Assembly: GCF_032362555.1 (NCBI RefSeq)
Contig: NC_083507.1
Location: forward strand, 3,289,001 to 3,353,000
DNA length: 64,000 bases
Origin: Amyelois transitella
Lineage: Eukaryota > Arthropoda > Insecta > Lepidoptera > Pyralidae
Direction: 5' to 3'
Made by a program: the position numbers and the translations under genes
In this document: one piece after another, positions 6,001 to 52,553 of the stretch
Layout: each line of letters begins with the position of its first letter
Position numbering within the stretch: the first letter of the stretch is position 1
Notes under the pieces: generated by a model
Database searches by the model: none
Told to the model about the DNA's origin: nothing
Seen by the model: the letters and a program-made list of their open reading frames with translations, nothing else

Positions 6001-9000
6001 AAACTTTGGTATCTGCAATGTCTTTTCCATTTTATTCTTATCATTTTAAACCAACATTGAAACTTTATTACTTATACACTTTTTCCCTCTCATCTTGTTG
6101 CTATCAATGTAATCCAGTTGCTAGCTGCTTCGAAGTTCTGGGTTTGTATTCCGGCATTTAAATTGGGTTTTGTTCTAATTGTCATCTATGAACAAGAGAA
6201 TGTCGTATTTCAATATACATATCGAGTGCAAAAAAATCCACCTTGACTGTTTGGAAGCAGCCTGAGTTAATTTTTCCTACAACTTTAACAAAACCAAACC
6301 GGATCACCTATTGGCAAATATGTTATTTTGAGACCTGTAGCGGCATCATGTTGGTTCTCTCGGAGCCGGCACACAGCAGCTGCTGCTGCAGCGCCGGCTG
6401 CAGCGCCGCGAAGGCGGGCGCGCCGGTCAGGTTGTGCAAGTAGCGCACCAGCGCGGAACTGAACGCGCCGTACAACGCGCCCAGTCGCGCCCCGAAACAC
6501 GATGATATTGTGCCTAGACAAACAAAGTACATAATATATATAAAAAACGAAAATCATTGATTAGTTTGATTTATAACCGAAATTCTTCCTCACGAGGACG
6601 AGATGTCCGACTAAAATGCGTGGAGGCACAGGTTTAAATCATATCTGCTCAAATCAGTAATCACTGTGTACACCTCCAGGTACTTGCGCATTTCAGTCGG
6701 AAATCTTACTGATTCGACCGACGCTCTTGTCTTTTCGTTCCGAGTTATCAGTTGGTTAACATAGGTCACATTCAGATTTTTGGGCGCTCAAGATTATTCG
6801 TGATATGTTACCAATCTACCAAGACAGATCGATTTTAAAATACGGATACTTCAAATCAGTCTCTTCCCACAGAGTTCACAATATTAAAAGCAATACTAGA
6901 TGCATTGTTAGGACGTTACTACTCCTACTTAAAAATAATAAAATAACAAATGAAAGGTTCACAATATACCTGTATCAGTGCGAGCGGTCTCCCTGTCGAG
7001 ATCCTTGGCCAGTGCCGCGAGCAAAGCCTGGTGTGCGTCGTGTAGCTGTAACGCAGTCTGGCCGAGTCGGTCCGAACCCTCGCTTATGATCTCATCTGTC
7101 AGCAGGGTAAACACTTCTGTCGCCAATGTTATGTACTGCAGGAAAAAAAAACATTAGTAACTGTTTGGTGTCAGAAAGTGATCTGGATGATCCCATAAAA
7201 CAACTCTAATCTTTTCATAGCATATTAAACTGCTTTTAGGGATTCAAACAAGCTTCGTAACAAATAGCTAGGAAGTCAATCGAGATACGCTATAAGATCA
7301 GTCACCAGGTGGCAAAGATTACGTTTTTGCATCATAAGATACTTTTTATTAAAAGGTATGTTGCGCGAGATATATTTTTCTTAAACTTTCCTTCTCAGTT
7401 AGGCATATATAAACAAAAAATATATATTAAAGCTCAATCTTTTCATTGTAAAAATGCAGTTGATTATGCCTGTCTTAGGGTTGACATTTTTAGAATGTTT
7501 TCAGACTCACCGAGTAGGGTTCTGATTTATCCGGCACTATAGGATGGTTATGCCTTGCGGGGGCGTCGCTAGGATTAGCCTCGTTGGGGGCTCTCGTACC
7601 ACCGTCTGAGGCCTCTGGCGCCACCAGCGTAGACTCGAACCACAGCCCGAATAGCGGCTCACTGTCTGCTAGACAACGTTATATTAGTTATAAGTCCATA
7701 TTCCTATTCCCCTATGCCACAATCGACAATCCTACCCTCAAGTTGCGCACACATACCGGGGCAAGGAAGTAGAGAAAAAAAGAGAATTTGTTCGTAATAT
7801 TAAAGTACAAACGTCTGTACCCGGTTTATTGTATGTAGCAAATATAAAAAGAGATAAGTAAAAAATATATATACGAACAACCCTAAAGCCTATGCCATTT
7901 TTTGTGTTCATCTAAAACACCTATTTAAAATATAATGTAAAAAGTACCTTTCAAAATATCCAAGAGTTCACCAGTAAAATAAGTATTAATATCACAATTC
8001 TCAACAACTATATAAACTTATTTCTTCATATGAACAACAACACATACCATCATCAGTCTCCTCGTCCTCGGAGCAGAGGATCATGTCCTGGAAGTAGACG
8101 GTGGAGTCCGAGCGGTCGGGGTCCGCGTCCTGGTGCTGCTTCTGTACCACGGCGCGCTTCAGGTTGGTGGCCTTGCGGTAGCATACCACGCCCAGCGCCA
8201 CCAATAACTGGAGAACGAATGAACATTTTAATAACTTTTTTCTTACTCTTCATTTAATTTCAGAGATAAGTAGAGAAAGATAAGGCATAAGGCAAGGTTT
8301 GTCAACATATAAATTGCTATTGTACTAGACGTTACCGACCGATACTCATTACTACGCTTTTATTTATTGATCACAATTTTGTCATATATGTATGTACATC
8401 AATGTATGGGGACAACACTGGTGACAAATCCTTACGGCCATCTAGTGATGGCAGCTGTTAAAAAAAGCTTTACATTTAGATTAACTAACGTAGCAAGCAC
8501 TGTATTACATGACCTAATATAGTACAACAACAGCAATACAATCTAGTATATTCCATCTAGTGCGCGATTGTGCGCGAGGTGATTATGCTAGCACGCGCGC
8601 AACCTGGCCACGCTGTGTTCTTCAATCGCCTCCAGAGACCTACGCATCACATATAAAGCGACATCCCACCTGATGCAGCGGCGCGGCCGCAGCCAGCCGC
8701 AGCTCCCGCTGGTGCGCCGTGTGCTGCGCCAGGACGTGCAGCGGCGCGGACGGCGCGCTGGACACGCTGCGCCCCACGCTCAGGGCTTCCAAACGAGCGT
8801 CCGCCAATAAGGCGCCCACCCACGCCAGGCAGCGCCCGCCCAGGGCCACCCACACCACGCCCAGCCCTTGTTGCCTGGAGAAGTAACACAAACTGATTCT
8901 AAACGCGGTAACGGTACAACCACATCCCACAACTTTAATTGGATAAATATTTATAACCCCGGCATTAATAGTTACAGACCCAACTTTAGCCTACTTTTTA

Positions 9001-19688: not shown

Positions 19689-22600
19689 CTAGTGACTTTC
19701 GCCCTTTTTGCCGGCAACGCGTTTAAACTCTCCCATGTTGGTGGTGGAGATCGGTGAGCCGTAGAAAGCCAGGTGGTCTATCTGTGTCACCTCGCCGCCC
19801 GACTGGTTGTCTTTCACGAATAACTGAATGTTCTGAACATTCTGGAACTTCACGAATTTCAGCGGTATCGGATTGCCTTCTAGGTCATTTGGGGATAATC
19901 TGTAAAATGAAAATACAACAATAATAATGAGAAATATATTTTTTTTATTACTGTTGTACTTACTCCTAACAATCTAGAATTTTGACAGAATTACAGCATG
20001 ATAAAAAAGAAGGCTTGCAACAATCAATCTAGTACTGTTCCACCTTGAGTCTATAGTATGGATGTTAAAAGTTTTAAGTAGCATAGACATGACCAGTTGT
20101 AAAGTTCTACTTACTCCAAGTCTTGCACAGAAGCATTTCCAGCTGCCTGGTCGAAATCCAGGGTCCTCGGCTGATTTATGAACAATTTCACGAACTTAGG
20201 CCCTTTGTCCGCTGGCGCCTTGATCTTTAGGGAATGCAGCTTTACCAGCTGTGACAAACAAGTATGTTAGTTAACGGTGTATCCAGACATTAACAGTTGA
20301 ATAATTATTAACTCGACTGCCGCGCGTTCCTTACACCTTCCTTGCCCAAATGGATCAGTTATTATGATTTCAACACCTATCCTTTCATATCAACAACTCA
20401 TTTTAGATAAGTCCAATTTTAACCCCAAAATTAGTGATATAAAAATTTACTGGCTTTATGATTCAGTTAGTAAAAGCTCCCATGTTGGTCTGGCAGTGAC
20501 AAAAAAGCAATTGAATGACTTTTAAAATCTGCACAGAAGAGATCTGTGCAGATTTTAAAAGTCATTCAAACCAAAGGCTTGTAGACTTTGTATCCTTTTA
20601 GACCTAGGGCTAGTCATTGTCACTTAATAAGTATTTATGGGACAGATTACACAGATTAAGTTAGCCTCGAAGTAAGTTTGAGACTTGTGTTACGAGATAC
20701 TAACTCAACAATACTATATCTATATATATAAAACTCTTCCGTTACTGAGTGACTGACTGACAGACAACGCACAGTCGAAACTACTGGTCGTAGACAGCTG
20801 AAATTTGGAATGTAGGTTCCTTGGGATATGTAAGGGAGCACTAAGAAAGGATTTTTGGAAATTCAACCCCCAAGGGGGGGGAAAAGGGGTAAAAACGTTT
20901 CTATGAAAAATCTTATTCCTTGGGTTTATAAACTTGAAACTTGGCATGAACACGTACATAGGCAAGAAAATATGTTTGACATTATAAGTTTTTTCAAACT
21001 AACCTCCAATCGTGATTTAGGGGGTGCGATTGGGTGACTGATTTATTAACGCACAGCCGAAACCGCTCGGTATAGGAGTCTGAGATTTTGAACAGAGGTT
21101 CCTTTAGTAACATAAGTGAGCACTAAGAAGGGATTTTTGAAATGTCAACCCCCAAGGGGGGGAAACGGGATAAACTGAGCCGGGGCTGCGGGAAAGTTCT
21201 AACGAGATACCGTGGCCCCGGAACGCAAAGGGCAACTGAAGGAACGAGGTGGGTTTTAGTCAGTAAAAGTCTGACACTCCCTTCCGTTCCACCCAGAGCG
21301 GGAGAGGTCATTTGATGATTTCCCATCCTTAAAAAAAAAGACTTTGTATGACAACTTTCAGTCGTCTCTTTAACATACATAATAACATACATAATTATGT
21401 ACATACATGCATAACATTAATAACATCACGCCTTTAAATCCCTATTTTGTGTTAACACTACCCATACAAACAGCTAAAAGGAAACAAGTGAAGAGACGAA
21501 ATTTGTCCGCATCCATTTTCACCTAAATTCTTAACGTTAATGAGATTTACTTTTTATTATCAGGTCAACCTAATAGCCTCACATGTACGTATAACTTCGT
21601 AAGAATTTTCTTTCAACTCCGAACCGTTGAGGAGTTGTACCTTCCATCATCAGCTCATTCACATGGGATGATGACTATCAGACGCAAATACTTAAACAGA
21701 TCTATGAAATTGTCAAAAACGTAATTGCCTGTAAATTTGAGGTTTGCCCTTGATTTCCCTGGAATACCATCATCAGATCCTGACTAGGTAACAACGGGAC
21801 CAACTTGAAAGTATACTCTACCGAACAAAAAAAGAATCACGTAAATCGGTCCATAAATCTCGGCGTTATCGGTATGCATAAATAAAACACCCGAATTTTA
21901 TTTTCTATTAACTATCACGAGGCTACATCATCCCTGAGTAACACAGGCTATATTTAATTCCAGTTGTAACAAGATTTCAGCCTGTGGAAGAAAAAGCCCT
22001 GTCGAGATCATTAAAAAACGCTATATATAACCGAATTACACGTGGGCGAAGCCGCGGGCGGAAAGCTAGTTTTATAATAAAATAGCAACCCAGCCCCAGC
22101 TTGGCACAGGTGCAATGCTGATACCAAAATACATTTATTACAAAATGTCTTTATATACTCGTTAACAGCATTTATTTTTACATTTTTACTTCTTTATATT
22201 GACAAAGACCTAGAAGCACAAGCTTCGATACTTATATAGATAAAAATCAAAGACCCAGACCAATTAGAGAAAGTATCACTATCTGAATTAAAATTCTTTC
22301 ATTAAGCCATGCCAACTATGGTCTTTTGATGTATATGTATTCTACTTGCATAAATTGTTTTTGCTTTTACCTTACCTGATTGAAAGCAATGTTGATGATG
22401 AGTTGTTCATCACAGTCACTGGCGAGGTACCCGCCGCCGCTGGTGAGGGCGTGCACCATGGGGTGGTCATCGGCCTCATTCAAGCACTCACATTCACTTT
22501 TAGTGATGAAAGTCCCCAAATCCATCTATGGAAAGAACAATCAATTATGGGTAAGTTTACTGTTTATGGCATGATTACACTTCATCATCTCAGTAAAAAG

Positions 22601-24583: not shown

Positions 24584-25282
24584 AGTTATATAAATTAAAT
24601 AAAACAATTTATGAACAATCGAACTAGCGATGACAAGACAACAAAAATGCACTTCACTTCACTTCTGGCAAGCTCTTCAGTCAAAATCAAAATGGTTGAC
24701 TTGACAGTTTTGTTTTTAATATTATTGGCAATGATACGTCGTGTTTGTGGCTCCGTTTTGCTTTTTTTTATATTGAAAGCATTGTTTGTAAGGTTTAAAA
24801 AAAATTATGCTCATTATTTTTCATAACTCTATACCAAATGCATTTAACCTGTATTTAGATTACTATTATGCGGTATTACATTGTTCATGTATAAATACAT
24901 AGAACCACGCCCCTTCCCTTGAGAAATTCACACTTTTCATCCTCCTGTCGTAAATCCCGATTACATTCTTACTACTTTGGAGAGTGGACTGGATAAGTCA
25001 GGTACTTATTTACTTACATAAAGCGACTCCAATCCCCATCTGAAAAATTTTACAGGGAACTAAGCCCTTTTCAAATTACTTTAATAATAACTTTCTATAA
25101 AAAGCAAACGCATATTTTATTGCTCTCTTGATTAGAAGATTCATAACCAGCTTTTATATAAAAAAGCACTTATTTGATAAGTAACGCATGCAACCATTCA
25201 TCAAACACACGGTACCTAAGTATGTACGAGTGATATCACCCAGAATACGATTTTTAATTGCCATAAAATTATCTAAAAGTCA

Positions 25283-25520
25283 TACATACATACGTCTATA
25301 TCCCTTGCGGGGTAGACAGAGCCAACAGTTTTGCAAAGACTGAATGGCCACGTTCAGCTTTTAAGCATAATAAAACAATTGAGATTCAAATAGTGACAGG
25401 TTGCTAATCGCCTAAAAAGAATCCCAAGTTTGTAAGCCTATCCCTTAGTCGCCTTTTACGACATCCATGGGAAAGACATGGAGTGGTACTATTCTTTTTT
25501 TTTCGAATGGTGCCGGAATC
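25283..25520 (-). mobile_element. (TATG)n-tailed short retroposon, copy 2
   Basis: It carries the family core cgtctatatcccttgcgg, gtagacagagccaacag and cgccttttacgacatccat, in the reversed orientation. The head is diverged (ggtgccggaatccacacggg). Confidence 0.75.
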
Positions 25521-25951
25521 CACACGGGCACATCTAAAAGTCATGTTGAACGAAATTGAAATCGTTGGGGTACAAAATAAAGAATTTACCTTATTATCCC
25601 CTTATTATCTAGTGAATAGTTTCTTCCAATTCCGTTTAGTACCTAAGTTGATATTGCGTCAAGTATTAAATATATATATATACCTTAATTTCGCGCACAT
25701 ATTATTAGTTTTATTACTATGAGGTAAGTTTGGTTATAATTCCTTACGATTAGATGGAAATGGAACCCCAAAAAATTGAATTTGAAAAGAGAAGAAGTAA
25801 AAGAGCACACTAAATGGTTGAAAATGAATAAGAAAAACGCAAGACTTTGTAACGATTGTAAGAGGGAAATTCCGCAGGTTCTATCTACTCGTAAACTAAC
25901 CCCTTGGTATTTGTCTTAGCTTTTATATGCAGAGCCTTTATACCTACCTAT

Positions 25952-26134
25952 CTATAATGAGAAAATATTTTTTGTTTTAAACAAAAAATCTCTAAAACTA
26001 TTGCTTAAAATGTTTTCGGAATTGGTTTGACTTAATTTGGCATAGAGCTGGAATAGACTTTCAGGAGCACCGTAGATACTTTTTGAAAATAACCACAGGA
26101 GTGTGAAGACCCACCCAGAAGCTAGTTTTATCAT
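25952..26134 (-). CDS. Possible small secreted peptide (60 aa), unrecognised
   Basis: The ORF begins MIKLASGWVFTLLWLFSKSIYGAPES, given here only as a signal-peptide-like start: a short basic N-terminus, a hydrophobic core to about residue 17 and a small-residue cleavage site near YGA/PE. The remaining roughly 35 residues are polar with no cysteines. There is no family match that I recognise and no clear TATA box. It could be a chance ORF or the first exon of an unrecognised gene. It is divergent from the C16orf89 cluster, about 270 bp from its first ATG. Confidence 0.25.
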   Translation of the reverse strand: MIKLASGWVFTLLWLFSKSIYGAPESLFQLYAKLSQTNSENILSNSFRDFLFKTKNIFSL

Positions 26135-26404
26135 TTATGATTTAGTCATAGAATTATAGGTCTAATATTTCATTTTGTTCTCATCCATTCCGTGTAAAAA
26201 TCAATTTGTAAAGGTTTATCGATGCTAATTGTTTTATGAACAAACGTTTGTGTCTGCATCTTGTTGTGATTTCATTCTAGTTAGTCTTTTATTCAATAAT
26301 GTAATTCACTAATGTTTAACTTCTAGCCATATTACTTACCAACTTTTTTAATAAAATTGATATAAGTTGACTTTGTTTATTTATCCAAGTAATTAAATTA
26401 ATTT

Positions 26405-29400
26405 ATGAACATGAAGTTTTTAGTTTATTCGTGTGAGATAATTCTATTTCTAGCTGCCATTATTGCCCAAGATCCGTCCTGGTCTACGAATCAAACTTTA
26501 GTGGATGCAGATTTAAAAAAATATTTTAAATCTCTAGATAAAATTTTGAATTTTTTTGTGGCAAGAAAGATCTATGTTGACATCATAGTTAATTTTGGAT
26601 TATTTATTTTAAACGGTATGTGACTAAAAGTTTCAATACATGCCTTTTTTTAGTTTAAATACTATATGTTATTAAAAAAAAACTGTTACCTGAAACCTTC
26701 ATGCATCCTATCGTAAGTATGTACTTGTTTCAAAATATTTAAGATGGGAAAGCTTTCTGTATATATATTTGTTGGTAATTCAATTATAACCAGCATTAAC
26801 AGTAATTAAGTTAAAAATATACAGCGTTGATAGATATTACTTATTATTTCACAGTGAATTTAAAAAGACTATTGGGAGACAAAGGCAGCCGGTTACCAGC
26901 CTTCATAAAAAACGACTTAAACAAATTGCTAGTGAAATCTGACCATCTGATTAATTATTTAAAGCTTGTTAAGGAACATAACACAAAACCAGATGATGTA
27001 TATAGAACTCGTGAGTATCCATTGCTGATCTGGTATGATTAATTAGAAGTCAAAATTCATGATTTCGTTATATAAAATAAATCTTTCAGAATATTCTAGT
27101 TAACATTGTCATCTTTTTAATGTATAGGTATATACCTAAATTGGAAAAAAAGTGCATAGGAATTGGAAATTTTCAAGGTATCGCTTCACGCAAACAACGA
27201 AGCCGGTTTACAAAAAACGAAGCCGGTTTGCTAGTTTAAAATAAATTAATTTTTTTTTGTTTTCACAGTATCGGAATTGTTTTCTAATGAAGCTCTATGG
27301 ATAAAACAGATTGAAAACTTTCACCTTTCGAATATAACGCAAAATAATTACGCTAAGGATTACTTAAGGGAACTTTACCCAAGTTGGGACAATTTCATAA
27401 AAGTCAATGATCCTTGGAATTCTATACCTACACCTGAAGAGTCTGGTAAGAATCTGATAATACATATAATAAGTTACGGAAGCGTAGCTACCTAGTTTTT
27501 GTAGATAAGACCAATACAGGCAATAGGTACGGAATGAAATTCAATTAAAATGCATTGGCCACCAGAAAAATGTGTGCTCTGCGCCAATAAAATAAAAATT
27601 TTAGATAATTCTACAGTAATAAGAAGAGCGTAAGTTTTCTTTCATACCTTATTCGAAGTGTAACTAAGCCAATGAACATATAGATATAGGTACACATTTA
27701 ATCACGTCTATATCCCTTGTGGGGTAGATAGAGCCAACAGTCTTGAAAAGACTGAAAGGCCACGTTCAGCTGTTCAAATAGTGAAAGATTGCTAGCCCAT
27801 CGCCTTAAGAAAAGTCCCAAGTTTATAAGCCTATCCCTTAGTCGCCTTTTACGATATCCGTGGGAATCCTTTTTTTAATTGGTTTAAGATTATCGATAAT
27901 AAAAAGGAATGCGTAAGTTTTCACACATCATGCTTTTTTTCTGATTTGATTAATTCCAATGTGATTAATATGATCGTAAAAGTATATGATTATTTCAGAT
28001 ATGTGTTTGGCAAAAATTAGTAGGAATCCTATCAACACTTCCCCTAGAACCCACTCGGTGAAGTGTGACTTACCTGAGGATTGCCATCAATCGGTACTAT
28101 ATGGTACTGATCACGGATATGCATTAACACATAGGTATGTAAAGACACACCAATAAAAAAGTAAAAGAAAAAAGCCTTTCCGCATTTTCTGAACTCTGTT
28201 ACAAGGGATATAGATGTGATAATATGTATGCCTGTAAAATAAGGAATAAAATTAATAAATAAAATTATGTAAATAAACTAAATGAACAATTGCGAATTAC
28301 CAAAAAGAAACATATCTACATACATACATATAATCACGTCTATTTCCCTTGCGGGGTAGACAGAGCCAACAGTATTAAAAATACTGAATGGCCACGGTCA
28401 GTTGTTTGGCTTACTGATAGAATTAAGATTCATATACAGTGACAGGTTGCTAGCTCGTCGTCTTAAAAAGAATCCCAAGTTTATAAGTTTATCCCTTAGT
28501 CGCCTTTTGCGACATTCATAGTAAAGAGATGAAGTGATCTTATTCTTTTTTCTATTGGTGCCAGGAATCACACGGTACAACAAAAAACAAATAAAGTACC
28601 CAGAATAACATTTATTACATTTTAGTCTGTCTGTATAAAGCCGCTGCTAAAACTGGCGGACACCGAATATTTCCAAAATATCTAGGTACTCTATCTACTA
28701 GTTGACTCAGTAAAAAAATTAAAAAATAGTAATTCAGCTTTTTTTTTTCAAAAGAAGCAAGCTGGCATACACTATGTAGATAGTGCTTGCCAGCTCGCTT
28801 CTCTTTCCGTGCACTTTCTTAAAGTTGGGATTACTATTTTAGTTGATTGGCAACAACCTACCTACTGTCATTGTCTGAATTCAGCTGAACCGGGCCGTCG
28901 AGCCTTTTAGAGATTAATGATTCTAGATACCCCGTATGGAATAAAGATTGTTTATTTATTCCAGATTGCTGTTTCTGCAAGTTGCTCGCTATGCACGACG
29001 TTGTCACGTGGTCTCGGAGTTGGAGGATACAAAACTACGCAACAAGTTTTGTTCACTTTGTTACCGCGAGTGCTTGTATATTTCCATGAATGAGTTTCAG
29101 GATATTGACTTATTTTTGGAACATAGTAAGTAAAGCCATAAAGTGATATTAAGCAAAGCTGTTTCTATACATGTGGATACCCTAGTAAAGTACATAGTAG
29201 ATATGAGTTAGTTGCCAACTGAAAAGATTAGCTTTAATGTATAACATAAATATTTTATTTTCTTACCATTATTTTCTTGGCATTTTTTATTATCAAATAA
29301 AATTCTTTCGTGTAAAAAGCTACAAAAATACTATTATTATACTACTACATTTGGGTTATAATCCATTTTTAAATATTTCAATTGTAATTGACTGATGTCT

Positions 29401-30040
29401 AAACTTGAAAAAAATCGACGGTTGATCATGTAATATGACTAATAAAAGCTGCCTGGAGTGCTTTCGTGAGAAGAAAAGTTTATGGTGGTCACGACCCTCA
29501 GTTATGAGCATTCGACGTAGAAGAAGAAGAATAGTAGCAAAAAATGTGATTATTAGAATTTTGTCGGTCCGTATACATTTACTCGCATCGCCGGAAAATT
29601 ATTGCTGCGATTTTGTTAAATGTGTTCGATTCGATCAAACTTTAAAACTGGTAGAAAATAATTTCTCCCCCTGACCCCTCTAAGGGAGCAATACAGAGGG
29701 TCGTATTATGGCGGATGAAGTCTCAGTCAATAGCTAGTTTATTATTCAAATCATCACTTTTAATATTTCAGTTTACTTCTGCTCTCTCGAGGGACACTCT
29801 CAATTCATCAGACGTCGTTGGCTGGCCAAAATAATAAAATCTCAGACGAGAGAAGGCTGCTTTCCAGATTCTCTCGATTATAAGAAAAATATAAGATCGG
29901 GAAGAATAGGCGACGATGATGGCACTAAAATTAATAAAAGATTTAGCATTCTTGGCGGTCGATGTAACGCTCACACTACATCTTTGGCAGCGGGGGTTTT
30001 GGCCGCAGCCGTCAGATTTATATTGGAAACATTTTATTAA
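26405..30040 (+). CDS. C16orf89-like (DUF4735) secreted protein, tandem paralogue A
   Basis: Exons are 26405-26615, 26855-27010, 27269-27445, 27999-28134, 28965-29125 and 29772-30040, giving 369 residues with intron phases 1,1,1,2,1. A signal peptide covers about residues 1-22. Family motifs are GYALTHRLLFLQVARYARRC, FCSLEGHSQFIRRRWL, EGCFPD and CNAHTTS, followed by a FILETFY C-terminus. These match the UPF0764/C16orf89 family, whose vertebrate member is a secreted, thyroid-enriched glycoprotein of unknown biochemical role. Eight cysteines align with the other two copies; A has two more in SLCYREC (exon 5). The loop between GCF and GGRC differs from B and C and lacks the shared WLL segment. 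AATAAA at 30039 overlaps the stop codon. Two retroposons sit in its introns 3 and 4. Confidence 0.88.
27690..27870 (-). mobile_element. (TATG)n-tailed short retroposon, copy 3 (truncated)
   Basis: This partial copy lies in intron 3 of paralogue A. It contains cacgtctatatcccttgtgg, a gtagatagagccaacag variant and cgccttttacgatatccgtggg, and lacks the TGCCGTGTGG head. Confidence 0.7.
28318..28577 (-). mobile_element. (TATG)n-tailed short retroposon, copy 4
   Basis: A near full-length copy in intron 4 of paralogue A, from acatacatacatataatcacg to ggaatcacacggta. Confidence 0.8.
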
Positions 30041-30720
30041 TAAATATTCTCAAGGAATTTAACTGTTTTAACTGTTGTTTTATCAACAACAGAATTCTCC
30101 TTAATTCACTAATTATATGATATCTATTACTGTTTATCTTCTAGTCTCAAAATTTTTAATATTGCGTTACGGTCATTTATTTTCTTTTTTAATTTTCCAA
30201 GATCCCGGGGTAGAAATTGCTTTTATGATAGGGGCCGCCTTTTGTATACTTTTTATTATATATTTTTTTTTGTTTTGTCCTATACGTTTTCTTTTTGGTG
30301 CAATAAAACTTAAGTACATACAACAACACACACGTACCACGTCTCTATTCATCACGGGAAAGACCAACCTCCACGAAAAAGCCAACAACTAAAAGATGAA
30401 TCCCAAGTTCCCTTGATTCCAGAGAGCATCCCACACTCTCCCGGGTGAAGACCTGGGGGGTGGTCCATAAAAAGATTTCCCCACACTTTGATAGCAAAAT
30501 TAAGGGTTTACTTAAATAAATGGTTGTTGATTGACCAGGTTTTTCATAACGTGCTTACAAATCACGTGTAAGAAAATAAAATTGCACACTTAAATTCAGT
30601 TAATTATTGTTCGATAGTTTTAATAGCACTAAAATATTATTATTTGTATAGCTATCGTCGTGATTTTGCATATAGAACGAATAAAAAGTAAGAAATAATA
30701 TTAAAAAATTTATACAAGGC

Positions 30721-33572
30721 ATGATACACACTTTGTGGTTCTATTGGATATCCATGTCACTGTTCACAATTTGTTTTGGTCAACAAATGCAATTTCAAAA
30801 GAAGCAACCACAAGTAAAAGCTCTTATTACTTTAAAAAATAAATTAGATATACTTGTAAAGACTGATTTGAAAGTTCTACTGCCTGTGTTGCATGACATC
30901 CTAAACTTCTATTTGGATAGCAAGAACGATATTGATTTGAATTTGGAGTACGGAATATTTTTATTAAACGGTATGTAAGTATAAAATTAATGTAGCGTTA
31001 AGTAAGATAATTCAAATATACCTATTTAAGATTAAACATCCTGAAGTGAGGCGTGTCTTGGCGAATTCGCTAAGACACCAACAACCAATTGGTTGTTTTA
31101 ACCAAATTTTCTAGGGCTTGCGTTAGGCAGGTATAATCAGATAATGTGGGGTCATTTTATAACGAGAACATCAAATAACTAACAAGATTGATCCTAAATC
31201 TCCCAAAACCATAGGATCAGGTCAACTATTATACACAAAACATCAAAATAATTCATTTTTAAATGCATAATTTACGCTACAATTCATACTTGCAGTGGTC
31301 ATGAAACGACTGACTGAAGAGAAAAGTGCGAGACTACCGAAGTCTATCGCTTATAGTTTAAAACATTTGTTAGAAAAAAATGATGAGCTAATGACTTTTT
31401 TCAAAACACAAGTAAGTCGTGACGTGAACCCTGATGACAAAACACTTAAAAAGAGTAAGTTATTAACTAGTAGATGCGTTGCTTCTACAATGAATTGTAT
31501 TACCTACGTTGATATACAGATAACCTGACCTTTTTAAATTTATTTTTATTTATTTAAGTTACACTCAACCATAAAACTGTGTACGAAAAGCTTATACATT
31601 GTCACCAGTTTTGATTGTTTTTATAGTCAAAATCTATTATATAAATAAAGTTTTTGATTGCCGTAAGAATAAGAATATCACTATCATTCTAATCCAAGTA
31701 AAACTATGCTTATATTTTATAGCCTAGTTTCTTAACATTTATTTGAATTAATGTTGATTACAGTTTTGACATTGTATTCTAATGAGTCCGTATGGATGTC
31801 ACAAGTGAAAAAGTTTGATATAATGCACAGAAAGAAGCAGCATATTAAAGTAAGAACGAGGCTGGTCAGTCAATATAAAAATTTAAGTTTTTATGAAGAA
31901 CTCTGCCAGAACTCCACGCCGACTCCTTTCCAAGCTGGTAAATTTGAGTTTATTTAAATAAAATACTTGAAATTTTCGTTTTAAAGTATTAAAAGCAAGG
32001 AAAGATATTTCTCTATACATTAATGTTTTTTTTCTAAAATATGTCTTTTTTGTATGTGTTCTTTTCAGTAAGTAAAATTTTTGCGAAATTCTGTTCAGTT
32101 TTTCCGATTATGTAGGTATACACTGTTAAACATTAAAATAATATTTTACTTCTTGGTGGTGAATTAAAGGTTTGAAAAGCTTAGTACTTACCTTTCACAC
32201 TTAAATACCTACAAAGAAGTAAGTAAAGGTACAGGTAAAATTTATTTCTTTTTAGATTTTTGTATGCGATTTTTGGCCCAAGTTGCCATCAACAATACTG
32301 TGGTGCACACGTGCAAAGTCCCTTCACCCTGTGTTAGACTATTGTATAAAGGCTCCAGTATTGGATATGCTTTAACACATAGGTATGTTGTATTGTATTC
32401 ATCATAGTAAATAATTTTTAGTTTATAATTTGCTTGACGGGTTGATGGACCAGAACAGAATGGTCCTGGTAATATGTACTTACATATAAACTTTTTGTTA
32501 TCAATAAGACTCTTTAACCACGTTCAGCTGAATGGCATTGAGATTCACATAGTGACAGGTTGCTAGCTTTAAGCCGAAATAACTTGCTGCGCCCTCTCCC
32601 TTTGGAATTTCTTAGTAATAGTAGAGTAACAAACACTTGTCCAAACATATTTACAAACTTTCGCATTGATAATATACTTAGTATAATTTTTATTGATTTC
32701 ATACAAATTTTAGGATTTAATGTTTATTTTAGGTTAATGATGTTACAATTCGCTCGTTTCGGGCGCCGATGTTATTTCGTTTCCGAGCAAAAGGACCGCG
32801 CTCTTGAAGACAGGCTGTGCAAGGACGCCTTGCAAGAGGCGGCTTTCTTGAGCCATAACGATTACAAGTTCGGAGACCTTATGTTAGAACAAAGTAAGAA
32901 TTTACGAGAAAATTTTGCTTAAAAAATCCTAGACTACACTTTATATAAGACCCGCAAGTTCGGAAATAATGAACGGGAAATTAATAAAGGCTTTGGTATA
33001 TTTCCCTTTCATGATCAATTTTTCCATATACTTAGCTCAAATTGTACACGTAAAGAGGGAAGATTTCTATTTTTGTTTGTTAAGAAAAACCTCAAAAACT
33101 TTTTAACAAAAATAGACTCTACATTTATATTTATTATATTTTTTTGGAAAGTAATATTATGGTGGGAGGCCGCCGATAAAATTACAGTAAAAATAGGTAT
33201 ATAATAATATATTGTATAAGAAAAAGGTCCTGTGATATAATATACAATACTGGTATAATAACTAGAATAGCAATAAATCCTTACCGCTTTTCAGTAACTT
33301 TCTGCACGCTGATTGGCCACTTCGAATTCCTAAAACGTTCGTGGTTGGTCCAGCTGGTGCATTTCCGAACTAAAGACGGTTGCTTTGCGGACAAACTGCA
33401 TCATAAGGAGCGACAGAAGTCTAAAGACGCCTTCACATCTGAGGTTCCATGGCTTTTGAATAAAGAATCGAACGCGCATCTTCTCAGTGGTTGGTGTGAG
33501 GCACAGGTCACCAGCGGCGCTTTGACGACTATGGTTCTCGCAGTCAAATATTTGTTGGAGGCGTTTTACTGA
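30721..33572 (+). CDS. C16orf89-like (DUF4735) secreted protein, tandem paralogue B
   Basis: Exons are 30721-30970, 31296-31454, 31764-31937, 32256-32382, 32733-32893 and 33295-33572, giving 382 residues with the same intron phases as A and C. The signal peptide ends near CFG at about residue 20. Motifs are GYALTHRLMMLQFARFGRRC, FCTLIGHFEFLKRSWL, DGCFAD, PWLLNK and an LLEAFY end. The CxxHT motif of A and C reads CEAQVTS here, so the conserved His is replaced by Gln. The C-x5-C pair (CKVPSPC) in exon 4 is kept. AATAAA lies at 33687-33692. It starts 0.68 kb after paralogue A. No stops or broken splice sites were seen, so it is probably expressed. Confidence 0.88.
31053..31097. repeat. Two adjacent palindromes in intron 1 of paralogue B
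   Basis: 31053-31078 is a 26-nt palindrome centred on GAATTC with one mismatched pair. 31080-31097 is a perfect 18-nt palindrome (aacaaccaattggttgtt). They are one base apart. Confidence 0.8.
32508..32575 (-). mobile_element. (TATG)n-tailed retroposon fragment
   Basis: A short relic in intron 4 of paralogue B that keeps ccacgttcagctg, attgagattca and atagtgacaggttgctagc of the family core. Confidence 0.65.
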
Positions 33573-33692
33573 TATTTGTTTTTTTTTAATTATGTATAGA
33601 GAAAACAAGACGAGGAAAAAGGTGGAGGAGAGCTTGCGTGACGTGTAAACTTTTAACAAGTTGTTCTTAGGTCCGAAACCAGGAATAATAAA

Positions 33693-35106
33693 ACCTTTTA
33701 AGATAAGTTTTTTCATTTAAATGTATAATGCTAATATTATAAAGAGAAAACATGTATTCCATTTGTTCTAGAACATATGTTTTTCTTCTCTCACGTAGGA
33801 ATTACCTACACCTAACCACATGCATTATCAAGTCAATATTTTAATTACAGAAAAATAACCCTTACACACTTCTTTTGCTGCATCCTCAATTCATTACTTT
33901 TTGCGAACACGCGTGAGTTTAAGATACTCTTTTATCTTCTGTTTTACATGAACTTGTGTATAAACGGGATGCTTACTTATTAACCTCAAAAATACCTTCA
34001 GAATTGTAATGTATTATTGTTTGCTACGGACAAAATGAAAATGAAACCTACACAATGATGTCAGATTACCCGCGGCGAGGCTTACCCTCGCTATAATTTA
34101 CGTGGAGCTCTCGAACGACTGCGATTTATTTAAATAAAGAAAATCTTTTTTAGGGTTTCGTATGAAAACAAAGCGTTGATAGGATTTTAAGGAAAATTGA
34201 TATAGTTTAATAAAAAACACACACATGGTATATGAAAAAACCTTCGCGGCACATTAGGTCCTGTTATGGGAATGTCCAGTCAGATTTCAGTCCATCTCCT
34301 TGAAGGTCCCATTCCATGAATGTCTACTTTACAAAAGGCTAGTGAGTACCTACTACGCGAACGTTATACGCAACGTAATGACTTCTTCCTTTTTTGAAGC
34401 TGGTTAAAAAGAAATGTGACTGACACTCCAGGTTAATGGTCAAGGGTAAACGCCGGTGCTCTCTCTAGAGTGATGAAGACTGACGCCAGAAAGATGACTA
34501 CTTAGTCGCAACATACAATCTAATTGGTAATTAAGCCAAGCCTACAGTTTTGTAAGAGCAACAAGTGCAGGAGAGACGTTATTGCTTTTTGGACAATTTT
34601 ATGTTTTTTTTTTAACTTTTACTTAGGCGCATTCCCTATTTGATTCTTACTAAAGATAACATGTAAGGTAAACCTACATTGGGCTTCATAAAAAAGTATC
34701 TTTATTGAGAAATTTAAGTAGCGCATAATAAAAGAAACGTTTCATTATATATCAATCATTTAATTATTTTTTTACGGAACGTCTAACGAAATTACTTACT
34801 TCACTATTAAAATTTATGTTTCATTTTATGACAAATAAACCTCTAATTCATAAATGTTTAGATAACACACGGAATTCAAGCAAATTATTTGTTATTGAAA
34901 ATTTATGTAGTATTTCCTAATAATGCATTATACAGATGTGGTCGCTGGGATCTCATTTATTCTTCGTAGGAATAAAATCCCGGATTGACGGAGAGGAACT
35001 ACTCAGTTTTTATTTGAATTCGGTCGCAGAAACATCTGTGTTTTTGAGCAGTTTAGTGTGAAATAGTCGGTGTTTTCATTTTCTCATTGGTCTTAACATT
35101 TAAAAC
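33693..35106. other. Intergenic spacer between paralogues B and C
   Basis: About 1.4 kb of AT-rich sequence. No repeat family recognised elsewhere in this window and no plausible exon was seen. The promoter of paralogue C must lie at its right end; no clear TATA box was found there. Confidence 0.5.
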
Positions 35107-37943
35107 ATGACTTTATTCATGTTATGTGTAATATTTCCAACAGTAGTTTTAAGCATTAATTATACAAATAATCAAAACAATACGAGTTATCAAAAAAATA
35201 CAGTAACAGTATTTCTGAATGAATCAGAAAGACTCCTAAATCGAGATTATAACATTAGCAATATATATAAAAATACACAATCGACTAATAAAAAAATTGG
35301 TCATGTTCAAAAATATAAAAAACCGAAATCGAAAAGTAAGAAAAAAACTAAGCCTAATAATAAAAAGCAAGTTTTCATACCTATCAATAGGAATCTATCA
35401 GATATGCCTGTAGAGTCTGATTTGGAGGACATTTTTAATGCATTGCATAAAGTTCTAGACTTCTTTTTGGAAAATAAAAATGACGTCGATATCAGTGTGA
35501 ATTATGGATTATTTTTATTGAACGGTAAGATTAACATAACATTATAGAGACAAAAACATATACTTTAATAATTTAAACATTAATTAATAACTACTCGTAT
35601 TACAACTTTCGTGTATTTTCAGTGAATTTAAAAACTGTTCTTAAAAATAAGCGCAATAAGTTGCCATCGGGAATAGACTTTAATTTGAAGCATATTCTGG
35701 AGAAAAATGACGAGTTGCTGACTTTCTTCAAAAAGATGGTGGAACAGGACGACGACCCTGATGACAACTTGAGTAAAAGTCGTGAGTTTAAATTGTATCT
35801 GCTAAAAATAATTAACTAAAATCTAATAAAGTCTATTAGAGTTCCCGAGAGAATTTCGGGAAATTCTATTTTAGTGCACCCATACTATATGGGAATCTAC
35901 ATCCCAAATTTCAATTCTTTACACCCAGCGGATTATGCTGTGGGTAGATATATCAGTCAATGAGTAAGTTTCCTTTTTTATTTCAGAAAATATTTCCTTA
36001 GTCAACTTATACGACGTCCATGAGAAACATCTGTAGTCGTTGTAACGCGTACCATACGGCACATACATAATATTAATAAATTCTTGTGTTGTGAACTTTC
36101 AGTGACCAATTTATTCAGCCACGATCGACTATGGATAGATCGCATACGGAAATTCAATGGTTCCCACCAGAATGAAACATTTACGGAGAAGTATGAAACA
36201 CTTGAGTATCGCTACTCACAATGGGCCAAATACCTGGACAACATCGGGGATTTCGAAAAAGCACAACCGCGTCCTGATCAGTCTAGTGAGTATAATATTT
36301 TTGAAAACTGCTTCAAACTCATTTTCGTCTGCAAAAATTGCAACTGAGTCGAGTTCTTATGTCCATTTGTTCTTAAGCCATCATGTGTTGCTAACTAAAG
36401 AAACAGTTAAAAAGTTCTCTCCTTAATAAACATGCATGGCATATAAGCTCAGTTGGTTTCGAAGCCCGCATATAAATAATATCTTACACATACATATATG
36501 TCGCCGTTGGATGCATACATTATGTACTTTTTCTGGTATCTTCTTGATCGGTCGTCATTGCTAAAGTCATTGCTGAATTTAAACTTGTTTTTCTTTATTA
36601 CAATCAGCAGCCTGTAACTATAGTATATAAAACTATTTCAGATCAATGTTTGTCGTTTTTGGCTAAGAATCATGCATCTAAAGATTCCTGGAAGAAAGCG
36701 TGTCGAATACCAATACAATGCAAAAAGCCGCTTGCTCAAGGTACTGACTACGGATACGGGTTAACTCACAGGTAAGTGCAATTAGAATTTGGTATTTTAA
36801 TCAATCAATGCCTACGTGATAATAACACGACAGTAGTTGATTGAACGACAACAAAAAGCAGAAGCTACTATTAATTTATCTGATACTTTGGTCCTTACTA
36901 TGAGATAATTTTCAGATTTTCTTACGGAAATTTATATCCCATTTAACGTGTGAGTGCGGAAACGCTACAATACGTCGTGAATATTGCTTGGTTTAAAATT
37001 TTTTATTTCCCCAATACAATAAAGTACATTGACATGAATTTATCCTGTTCTATGTTATTAGATCAATTAAAATAATGTCCGTATTTTGTATTGACGAATC
37101 TTATTAGTCTGATTTTCATGAAATTTAAGGGTATGTAGGAGCTGACAATAGATTTTTAAAATTCGTGGGGCCTAAATATATTTAGCCACTGACATATATC
37201 AGTCAAGTTTTAGAAATATTCGCAATTTATATATCGTTGCATGAACAGAGTTAGGAATGTGGACGAAGCGAAAGAAGTATGCAGGGATTGTGGCAAGTGG
37301 AGAGATGTAGTCTCTGCCTACCACTCTGAAGTGTGTTAACTACACACTGTGACGTTAACTACACACCAATCTTTCAGGTTACTTTTTCTACAGTTAGCTT
37401 ATTATGGACACCGTTGTTTTGTATTCTCTAACAAAAAGGACGAGGAAATGCGACGACAGTTCTGCAAAAGCTTGTATTCTGAAGCCACGTACATCAGCAT
37501 GAATGACTACGGGGCCATTGACCTTTTCGTGGAACAATGTGAGTATTTATTATCTAATCGAAATATAGCTTCAACAGAGCGTGGTGGAAATCATTGGGAA
37601 AATGCCCGTGTTCAGCAGTGGACGTCCTATGGCTGATAGTGTAACATTGATTCCGTAATTTCCAGTGTGTCTATGCGCCCTGGACGGCCACTTTGAGTTC
37701 CTGCGTCGCTCCTGGCTTCTCAGCATTACGGACTACCAAACAGAAGCCGGCTGCTTCTCCGACTTGCCGATCGAGAAGAGGCCTCGAAGACCTATTTTTG
37801 AGTCAGCTTTGCGGTCCACATGGCTACTGGACAAAGGGGAAAATCAGTACATCCTCGGAGGCATGTGCAATGTCCACACTTCGTCCGCGGCCGCCGCCAC
37901 ACTAGCTTTTGGAGTTAAATTCATCTTGGAAACCTATTACTGA
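35107..37943 (+). CDS. C16orf89-like (DUF4735) secreted protein, tandem paralogue C
   Basis: Exons are 35107-35524, 35623-35781, 36103-36285, 36642-36771, 37378-37538 and 37666-37943, giving 442 residues with intron phases 1,1,1,2,1. The signal peptide is MTLFMLCVIFPTVVLS. Exon 1 is about 170 bp longer than in A and B. It encodes a segment rich in Asn with several N-x-S/T sequons (residues about 18-52), then a Lys-rich stretch (KYKKPKSKSKKKTKPNNKK) near 70-88. Family motifs are GYGLTHRLLFLQLAYYGHRC, LCALDGHFEFLRRSWL, AGCFSD, TWLLDK, CNVHTSS and a FILETYY end. All eight shared cysteines are present. The basic stretch could bind polyanions or be proteolytically removed; this is inference. It starts 1.5 kb after paralogue B. 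Confidence 0.88.
37245..37335 (+). mobile_element. LINE 3'-end fragment in intron 4 of paralogue C
   Basis: The fragment aatgtggacgaagcgaaag, gtatgcagggattgtgg, aagtggagagatgtagtc matches the coding strand of the longer LINE tail at 41945-42255 (minus). A 13-bp direct repeat (gttaactacacac) follows at about 37334-37365, directly upstream of exon 5. Confidence 0.7.
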
Positions 37944-38232
37944 TGTATTGTAATTTAAATTGATGTTGAGGCAAATGCTGTCGTAGATACTTGTACTTAG
38001 TGTCAGAAATAATTAAGGGTATGTTAGTATTTATTTATTCTTATTAATAATTATAGTATTGTACTTTCGTGGTGTCAAAGTCTTTTTTATAGTTTAGAGC
38101 AAAGTTTTTAAACTTAGTTTTGACGGGGCTGTTAGTAAGATAAATAATGCAAATGCAGTGTGTTAATGTTTCATTCATGGAATCCTAATCAAATTTCCAC
38201 TTGAACCGTTTTTTATTTCACTATATATTTGA

Positions 38233-38505
38233 CTAGCTGTGCCCGCGACTTCTTCCGCGTGGAATAGTTATTTTGGGCATCATTGAAGTACTCAAGGATG
38301 AATAATTTTCCCCGTTTTTCTTTGACATTTTCCATTATTTCTTCGCTCCTTAAAGTTGCAGCATGATGTTATATAGCCTAAAGCCTTCCTCGATAAGTAG
38401 TCTATTCAATACAAAAAGAATTTTTCAATTCGAACCAGTACTTCCTGAGATTGGCGTGTTCAAACAAAAAAACTCTTCAGCTTTATAATATTAGTATAGA
38501 TTGGA
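38233..38505 (+). mobile_element. RTE-like retroposon 3' end
   Basis: The copy starts gactagctgtgcccgcgact and ends ctttataatattagtatagatt, a terminal pair repeated at 11752-11998 and familiar from lepidopteran RTE-type or related non-LTR elements. No RT reading frame remains. Confidence 0.7.
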
Positions 38506-38825
38506 TATGTTTAACTAGATACATAAAACACGCTGACACAGCAAGGCTGGGTCTGTGAGTTTATTTCATTTATTACGTTCGGAACATTCAAAGCGCATGT
38601 CATATTCGATCCTGTCCAGTTATTTACAACTATGGCGTAATTAAAATATGTCCCTTCCTCAAGAGAAGTGGACACGTCGAAAGTGACAAGCCAGGCGGCC
38701 TCGCTATGGTTGTATCGATACCAATGCCGGCCGGAAACGCAACCGCCATCAATGTTGCATCAAGCACTTCCGCCCGCAAGGTGTGTGGGTAAAAATATGT
38801 TTTTACAATTTACTGGGTTTAATAT

Positions 38826-39000
38826 GTGCCGTAAGTTTTCCGGCACTCTAGAATAGAACCACTTCATATCTTTCCCATGGATGTTCTTAAAGGCGATTTG
38901 ATCTTGGGCTAGCAACCTGTCACTTTTTAAATTCAATTCCATCATTAAGTCATGCAGCTGAACGTGAATGTGGTTAGCTCTTTTTACTTCGCAAGGGGTA
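38826..39000 (+). mobile_element. (TATG)n-tailed short retroposon, copy 5 (5' and middle)
   Basis: It runs from gtgccgtaagttttccggc through tcccatggatgttcttaaag, gggctagcaacctgtcactt and agctgaacgtg to a tcgcaaggggtatt end. The (TATG)n tail is missing. Confidence 0.7.
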
Positions 39001-39894
39001 TTAATTACTTTAAGATAATTTAATCATACCGTATCTAAAGTTGGCCTTTCGCTAAGTATGCAATACTTAGAATATTGCATCTCATCATCATTGGTTGCAC
39101 CTTAAACAAACAAAAGTGTAAAACAGATTATTTAAAGGAGAAAGATAATTTACCAACCGAACAATTGATAAGGTATGGTGTATGATTGATTTTTGAAAAG
39201 AAAATCATTAACCGCTGATAATATAACGAAAGCTTGATCAAAATCTCATTACGTGACTTGTAAATTGGTGATCAGCAGTGTGTTCACGCCTTTACATGTT
39301 TTGTATGTGTGAACGAATGCTTGTTTAGGTTCAATAGCATTTTACACATATTACCGAATTTTTAGTTTTCAACCTTTTACCATTACCATTCAAATTTTCA
39401 TTACATAAAAAATTTATTAAAAATTAAAAAAATCCCACACAAATTTAAAAAGTAAGAAATAATTCAATAACTCGATCTCAAAGCACCTAAATACTTAGTC
39501 TTGTAGTAAAATCATTATTACCAACCATATCCCGCAATTGTAATGATTCTCACATAGATTTAACAACTTTACCACACATTTGGTTCCTATATAAAAAATG
39601 ACATCAAGGATATTTGCATTAATGATTTGCGAGCACCTTCCGATCAATAAAACAGTATTGTATTAGTCTTCCAATACGTTCTATATTTGTTCTAATTTGG
39701 GTGTCGTCAAATTAAAATTCGGGCTGGGTTCCCCCAGGAGAATGCTGGCTCCATTGTGGATGGTTCCGTTACCTGGTCATCACGTGCCGGCATTCGAATA
39801 TTCTACTTTACTGTAAATGACCCTACGCTCCCAATTTCTTGGAAGTAACGAGGTAATGAAGTATTGTATGAGCAAGGTAATCGGCGTAAGAATT

Positions 39895-51224: not shown

Positions 51225-52487
51225 CTAATTGAGCCACCTTAAATATTCAAATATTTTGAGGAACACCAATCCAGGTGCCAATTTGCCCCAAACATGATTA
51301 TGATGACTCCATCCCGGTTCGGGTACCACAAAATTCTCTAAAAGGTTAGGCAATTTTGAGGTTAATGTAGCTATGTCCTTTAAGGACGACAACCAATCAT
51401 TTCGCCCTGTAATTAAAACTACTGGCGCCGTTATACGAGAAACATTATACTCTGGAGCTGTAGTTCTGCCATACCTTAAAATATTTCCTGTGGATCCTTC
51501 ATCGTAACGCTGAAATCGCTTAGATTGGATGAGCTGTCCAAAATGTGCGATGCTTTTAGAGGAACTGCCACTTAGCAAGTGACCAAACGCAATCGCTAAT
51601 GTCTTCCCGGGTATACCACTTTTGTAGCCGGTGGTAGCCGCAAGTGTAGCGCTGCACAGGTCGTCAGAAGAAACCTGACACAAATATTCTAAAATTAAAT
51701 GTGTCAGTTGATGGCTTGCTAACAATTCGCTGTATCCAGCTGAATCTAAGAATATCTTCAATTGCTGTGTTACATGTGATAGTAGCTTCGGAATAGGGCT
51801 CACGATGTTTGACATCCACGCCACTGGAGCAAGGAGTATGGAAACTTGGATCTTGTCATTGTATTTAGGTCTCAGTGATGCCATTGCCAAAAAGTCCGTA
51901 GTACCTTGTGAATGTCCAATATAATTTATTTTCTGTCGCCGAGTAACAGCCAAAATGTAGTCTATGACTGCAGGTAGATCAAAGTTTCCGTGTTCGTCGA
52001 ATGAGTAATTCCAAAACTTTACATCTTTATCAGGATTGAGCTTGATGTGTCTTCTCGAGTATTTGTTACCTCTGTGATTAGGAGTCCAGACATCATAGCA
52101 ATTTTGAGCGAGCAAATAACCAAGACCTCTTTGTTTTCCTGCTACAATCCATACGTCCGAAGTATCAAATATGCCGTGCATAAGCAAAACAGGATACCCG
52201 GTTTCTATTCCACATGTACTCAAAATCCTAAAGACGGTTAGGACATAGCCATCTTCTGTAGTAACAGTATGTTGTTCAGTATGGTAGCCATGTTTGCTGC
52301 TCAGTTCGGTAAAGTTGAGGTAAGTATCTTCGTAGTAACCCAAAGCCTTCTTGAGAGGTCGCGTCTCAGGGATGGAATACGATATGAGCCCGTTAGGTCG
52401 AGTGCCACGTTGTGTACCGACATTGCACGCGCATATAGTTATAATTAATATCCTTAGCATTGTTCTGATTTGCTTCACTAGTTCCAT
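51225..52487 (-). CDS. Secreted acid lipase (lipase 3 / lysosomal acid lipase-like), intronless
   Basis: A single 420-residue exon. An N-terminal hydrophobic segment (MLRILIITICACNVG, residues 10-24) is a probable signal peptide. The AB-hydrolase-associated lipase region follows (GYHTEQHTVTTEDGYVLTVF, about 67-86), then the oxyanion segment LLMHGIFDTSDVW, the nucleophile elbow GHSQG with Ser193, the acid GRNDW with Asp364, and the histidine motif SHHNHVWG with His395 in the catalytic place. The family motif is usually NHxDF; here the Asp is Asn397 and the Phe is His398. N-x-S/T sequons occur at NFT, NYS and NVS. The family hydrolyses acylglycerols or sterol esters, in insects often in gut or fat body. 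The first ATG is chosen because an upstream TATA box fits a short 5' UTR. The gene is isolated in a gene desert. Confidence 0.94.
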   Translation of the reverse strand: MELVKQIRTMLRILIITICACNVGTQRGTRPNGLISYSIPETRPLKKALGYYEDTYLNFTELSSKHGYHTEQHTVTTEDGYVLTVFRILSTCGIETGYPVLLMHGIFDTSDVWIVAGKQRGLGYLLAQNCYDVWTPNHRGNKYSRRHIKLNPDKDVKFWNYSFDEHGNFDLPAVIDYILAVTRRQKINYIGHSQGTTDFLAMASLRPKYNDKIQVSILLAPVAWMSNIVSPIPKLLSHVTQQLKIFLDSAGYSELLASHQLTHLILEYLCQVSSDDLCSATLAATTGYKSGIPGKTLAIAFGHLLSGSSSKSIAHFGQLIQSKRFQRYDEGSTGNILRYGRTTAPEYNVSRITAPVVLITGRNDWLSSLKDIATLTSKLPNLLENFVVPEPGWSHHNHVWGKLAPGLVFLKIFEYLRWLN

Positions 52488-52553
52488 TTGTTTGTTTACG
52501 TTTTACACTTGAAGTTAACAATGATATGGATTAAATGTGTTCTGCGTAAACAG

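Follow-up and report, generated by a model that had tools for sequence, protein, structure and literature searches.

The locus analysed here raises the question whether a run of exons in Amyelois transitella represents three separate genes of the DUF4735 family, and if so, how old these copies are, how many more the genome holds, and what their proteins might do. The window, which is the whole stretch of DNA that was analysed (64,000 nucleotides, C3:3289001-3353000), was searched with profiles, and the gene models of the cluster were built exon by exon, with boundaries picked by eye and an earlier description in hand. The three models are as follows.

Window 26405-30040, forward strand: c1, DUF4735 gene of 369 amino acids (PF15882 E 5.9e-31, 108.5 bits); coding exons 26405-26615, 26855-27010, 27269-27445, 27999-28134, 28965-29125 and 29772-30040.
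Window 30721-33572, forward strand: c2, DUF4735 gene of 382 amino acids (PF15882 E 5.2e-21, 75.9 bits); coding exons 30721-30970, 31296-31454, 31764-31937, 32256-32382, 32733-32893 and 33295-33572.
Window 35107-37943, forward strand: c3, DUF4735 gene of 442 amino acids (PF15882 E 4.9e-22, 79.2 bits); coding exons 35107-35524, 35623-35781, 36103-36285, 36642-36771, 37378-37538 and 37666-37943.

All 18 coding exons are open, all 15 introns are of the GT-AG type, and each model has the six coding exons and the intron phases 1,1,1,2,1 that the original prediction gave them. The introns of the three genes share identical alignment columns, which provides an independent check on boundaries that were chosen by eye. 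The claim of an intact tandem trio also held, with a start, a stop and a full exon set for each unit on the same strand; on this sequence evidence the units are not exons of a single gene, and the reading of one gene mistaken for three was rejected. A profile scan of the window returned the 18 cluster exons and one weak extra frame (7052-7195, E 0.94). Pairwise identity among c1, c2 and c3 is 34-39%, and both chance likeness and recent duplication are therefore excluded. A blastn comparison of window 25000-39000, in which traces of recent duplication were sought, gave only dispersed-repeat or short-piece matches and no exon-exon pairing between copies at E 1e-5. Alignment of the regions upstream of the copies revealed no likeness beyond AT-rich noise, and neither a bacterial promoter scan nor a small-region repeat search gave anything useful.

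The assignment to DUF4735, for which the original prediction had proposed a profile search, was confirmed. The curated cut-off of PF15882, which we take to be the family named C16orf89 or UPF0764, is 31.2 bits on a profile of 283 positions, and it is exceeded by c1, c2 and c3 as well as by three further genes described below, c4 (63.2 bits), c5 (78.2 bits) and c11 (115.3 bits, the highest score of the six). The match covers profile positions 4-279 in c1, 32-277 in c2, 4-277 in c3, 2-276 in c4, 2-280 in c5 and 9-282 in c11. The six models thus match most of the profile and, like the family, are small and begin with a hydrophobic segment. The other Pfam matches listed for c1, c2 and c3 are all below their cut-offs, and an NCBIfam search with c1 gave nothing above cut-off.

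Several other features lie in the window around the cluster.

Window 8004-8249, reverse strand: frame that resembles E3_UBR4_N weakly (15.6 bits, E 0.0027, short of the 25.1-bit cut-off) and may be part of a large gene on that strand.
Window 19692-19973, reverse strand: exon with a match to the PITH domain (E 3.5e-15), presumably part of a thioredoxin-like 1 gene.
Window 25404-25601: dispersed repeat of about 120 bases, with copies at 28464, 27799, 56397, 61313 and elsewhere, including the introns of c1.
Window 25952-26134, reverse strand: short frame with a hydrophobic, signal-like start, shortly before c1 and read in the other direction.
Window 38514-39023, reverse strand: two adjacent exon-like frames just downstream of c3, with no Pfam match at E up to 1.
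Window 51231-52502, reverse strand: single open frame of 424 codons resembling an acid lipase gene (Abhydrolase_1 E 2.9e-21, Abhydro_lipase E 1.5e-17).

With 25404-25601 as the query, the matches listed include at least 12 in the window, the query itself among them, and more in other loci. A segmental duplication that took in the neighbours was also considered and rejected, as neither the lipase nor the PITH protein had a match other than itself in the window or in loci L006-L032.

The genome, 327,366,114 bases in 33 contigs, was searched with PF15882 and with the protein of the C11 gene as queries. With PF15882, five exons were matched, of which three lie in the window and two on contig C11; c4 and c5 were missed. 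The C11 protein gave a weak match at C3:3634647-3634892 (E 0.0279), and a profile of four genes run over the C3 DNA around it placed 12 frames above the inclusion threshold, which make up two tandem genes. The further copies are the following.

C3:3627584-3630923: c4, DUF4735 gene of 377 amino acids (PF15882 E 3.7e-17).
C3:3631891-3634928: c5, DUF4735 gene of 381 amino acids (PF15882 E 1e-21).
C11:5437604-5442435: c11, DUF4735 gene of 371 amino acids in six exons, modelled by eye, phases 1,1,1,1,0 (PF15882 E 5.2e-33).

The tandem pair c4 and c5 lies about 300 kb downstream of c1, c2 and c3 on the same contig. Their exon junctions were sought with the phases 1,1,1,2,1 prescribed, so that these phases carry no independent weight; even so, the top-scoring junctions give a GT-AG intron in the c1-c3 alignment column in 10 of 10 cases. 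All five intron columns are common to the five C3 genes, and c11 has four of them, lacks the phase-2 intron and carries one of its own. The cluster is thus part of a larger family, with two genes elsewhere on C3 and a divergent one on C11: the expectation of three genes in the window was correct, but as a total for the genome it fell short, since no fewer than six genes are spread over three places. The number six is a lower bound because the PF15882 genome search itself missed c4 and c5; the profile scans covered C3 3279001-3553000 and 3607001-3645500. A profile of all six genes found no convincing extra copy in C3 3353001-3553000 (best E 0.034), and none in C3 3607001-3627000, where the best E was 0.76, or in C3 3279001-3289000, where it was 0.09. 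The weak match in the first of these stretches (C3:3406521-3406619, forward strand, 11.5 bits), between both arrays, may reflect a leftover exon or chance. In comparison with the DUF4735 family generally, what distinguishes this insect is the presence of at least six genes per genome, five of which have one five-intron layout.

Identity ranges over 26-43% among the five C3 genes (10 pairs) and lies at 19-24% between c11 and these. Codon-position comparisons of the C3 pairs give differences of 60-70% at position 3 and 31-46% at position 2, where unrelated sequences of equal composition should differ by 71-75%. All 10 pairs show constraint at position 2, including those near saturation at position 3. 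A dN/dS ratio between copies would be unreliable since synonymous change is near saturation. Judging from the pairwise identities and these coding positions, the copies are old. A tree of the six genes joins c4 and c5 with support 100/100 and separates c2, c3, c4 and c5 from c1 with 93/93, while the fork of c2 and c3 has 59/52. The root is unsure because c11 forms a very long branch, and the order in which the duplications would have occurred is unsure as well. Over the 10 C3 pairs, exons 5 and 6 are the most alike (43% and 40% identity) and exon 3 the least (23%), a pattern compatible with a conserved scaffold at the C-terminal end combined with a variable part.

In c1, c2 and c3 eight cysteines are aligned (C184, C204, C210, C240, C256, C284, C310 and C345 in c1 numbering), as originally predicted and in the motifs that had been listed, down to the CxxH/Q motif, where c2 has CEAQ. 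Eight cysteines also occur in c11, of which seven lie in common columns and C226 is near its column but not in it, so that seven are aligned in all six genes. These seven are among 25 columns that are invariant in the six genes; the others are mostly Gly, Pro, Trp, Phe, Leu and Ala. Charged residues other than cysteine are invariant at six positions (D59, R227, D248, E262, D313 and E366 in c1), from which an active site might still be built. In the THR and GH motifs, c1, c2 and c3 keep the histidine that c4, c5 and c11 lack, whereas the CxxH histidine, as read off the alignment, is kept in two of six genes and is missing in c2 too. The lack of conservation of the GH and CxxH histidines across the six argues against a common metal-binding or catalytic role for them.

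The first exon of c3 differs from those of its neighbours.

Window 35107-35524, forward strand: extended first exon of c3, comprising 139 codons and one further base.

It measures 418 nt as compared to 211 in c1 and 250 in c2. It includes a lysine-rich stretch (residues 69-88, of which 11 of 20 are Lys or Arg), and holds six of the nine NxS/T sites of c3; the other genes have three (c1), four (c2), two (c4), one (c5) and two (c11). This long lysine-rich N-terminal extension sets c3 apart in a comparison with known kin that was made by profile. The hydropathy of the N-terminal 19 residues is 1.26-2.08 in the six genes, which suggests signal peptides in all of them, although hydropathy is no signal-peptide predictor and later segments reach 1.65, above the N-termini of c4 (1.26), c2 (1.39) and c11 (1.62). 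Of the earlier idea of secreted proteins with different N-termini, the first half thus gained secretion-like N-termini, by hydropathy, and the second half stands weakly, mainly through c3.

The founding paper on C16orf89 is reportedly that of Afink et al. 2010. In the literature collection searched, C16orf89 occurs in 87 papers and UPF0764 in 7, whereas the word DUF4735 returned no paper, nor did C16orf89 together with insect. In the parts of the sources consulted, C16orf89 is among the thyroid-enriched genes (PMC5604164), and its function is given as unknown with transcripts enriched in human thyroid (PMC6473073). The human gene is set beside the insect genes here by these descriptions.

In view of the above, we consider that these genes represent an old DUF4735 expansion by duplication, whose products would be secreted, disulfide-braced, non-enzymatic binding or carrier proteins that have diversified since. 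The function in this reading is inferred, and the reading as a whole is about as likely as not. An alternative is that the proteins are enzymes, now or ancestrally, with c1, c2 and c3 keeping the THR, GH and CxxH histidines and c4, c5 and the C11 gene being divergent or inactive. The THR and GH histidines common to the cluster and the several charged residues invariant in all six genes are compatible with this, but it is improbable given that the gene scoring highest against PF15882 is one of the three without the GH and THR histidines, that c2 has no CxxH histidine either, and that protein searches of the six models found no enzyme family at its Pfam cut-off. The distribution of these histidines therefore favours an extracellular binding protein braced by disulfides more than an enzyme that relies on them. 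A ligand-binding barrel with an alpha/alpha toroid fold, like that of prenyltransferases, LanC and complement TED domains, is less probable still. It is prompted by exon 6, where W-L-x2-I-x3-Q-x3-G-C-F followed by GGxCxxHTSxAAA resembles toroid repeats, a likeness seen by eye and in this exon only. Pfam searches found no toroid family, and the 18 sequences of solved structures matched at E up to 10 include none that is meaningful, with repeat proteins and ferritins at the top. When the six-gene profile was compared with itself, no internal repeats emerged, the next-best match having a probability of 0.4%, and the DUF4735 genes differ from the toroid superfamily in showing neither a toroid domain nor helical-hairpin repeats that can be recognised by sequence. 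Searches for relatives in viral and genome contig collections, using patterns from the N-terminal part only, and in phage records found none.

The least probable option is that some of the duplicates have no role and are decaying or not expressed. The dispersed repeat within the c1 introns and the upstream regions that match only at the level of AT-rich noise would be consistent with decay, but the 36 coding exons of the six models contain no stop or frameshift, and the constraint on position 2 extends to every C3 pair.

The preferred mechanism, that of diversified secreted binding proteins, would start from an ancestral gene that already carried the shared introns and underwent tandem duplication; part of the array would then have come to lie about 300 kb off, while the divergent gene sits on another contig. 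Each protein would be exported by means of its N-terminal hydrophobic segment and fold around up to four disulfide bonds, to serve in an extracellular binding or carrier role rather than as an enzyme. The C-terminal half, encoded by exons 5 and 6, would act as the conserved scaffold, and the choice of partner would lie with exons 1-3, which change faster. In c3, the lysine-rich stretch perhaps holds the protein on acidic glycans of the matrix.

What the locus shows is an old expansion, in this lineage, of a family that is known yet uncharacterised; its genes are intact, and it is no new type of system. A more specific and tentative proposal is that the C3 genes form a secreted family peculiar to one clade, which arose from a single conserved DUF4735 gene, perhaps that of C11, with a fixed cysteine scaffold and fast-changing partner-binding exons. 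If this is true, the insect would offer a natural variant series in which a first biochemical function for the C16orf89 family could be sought. Six intact paralogues per genome can show which cysteines and other residues are indispensable and which exons are variable, beyond what single sequences reveal. In a genetically tractable insect single copies could be removed, which would give a genetic foothold for the DUF4735 family.
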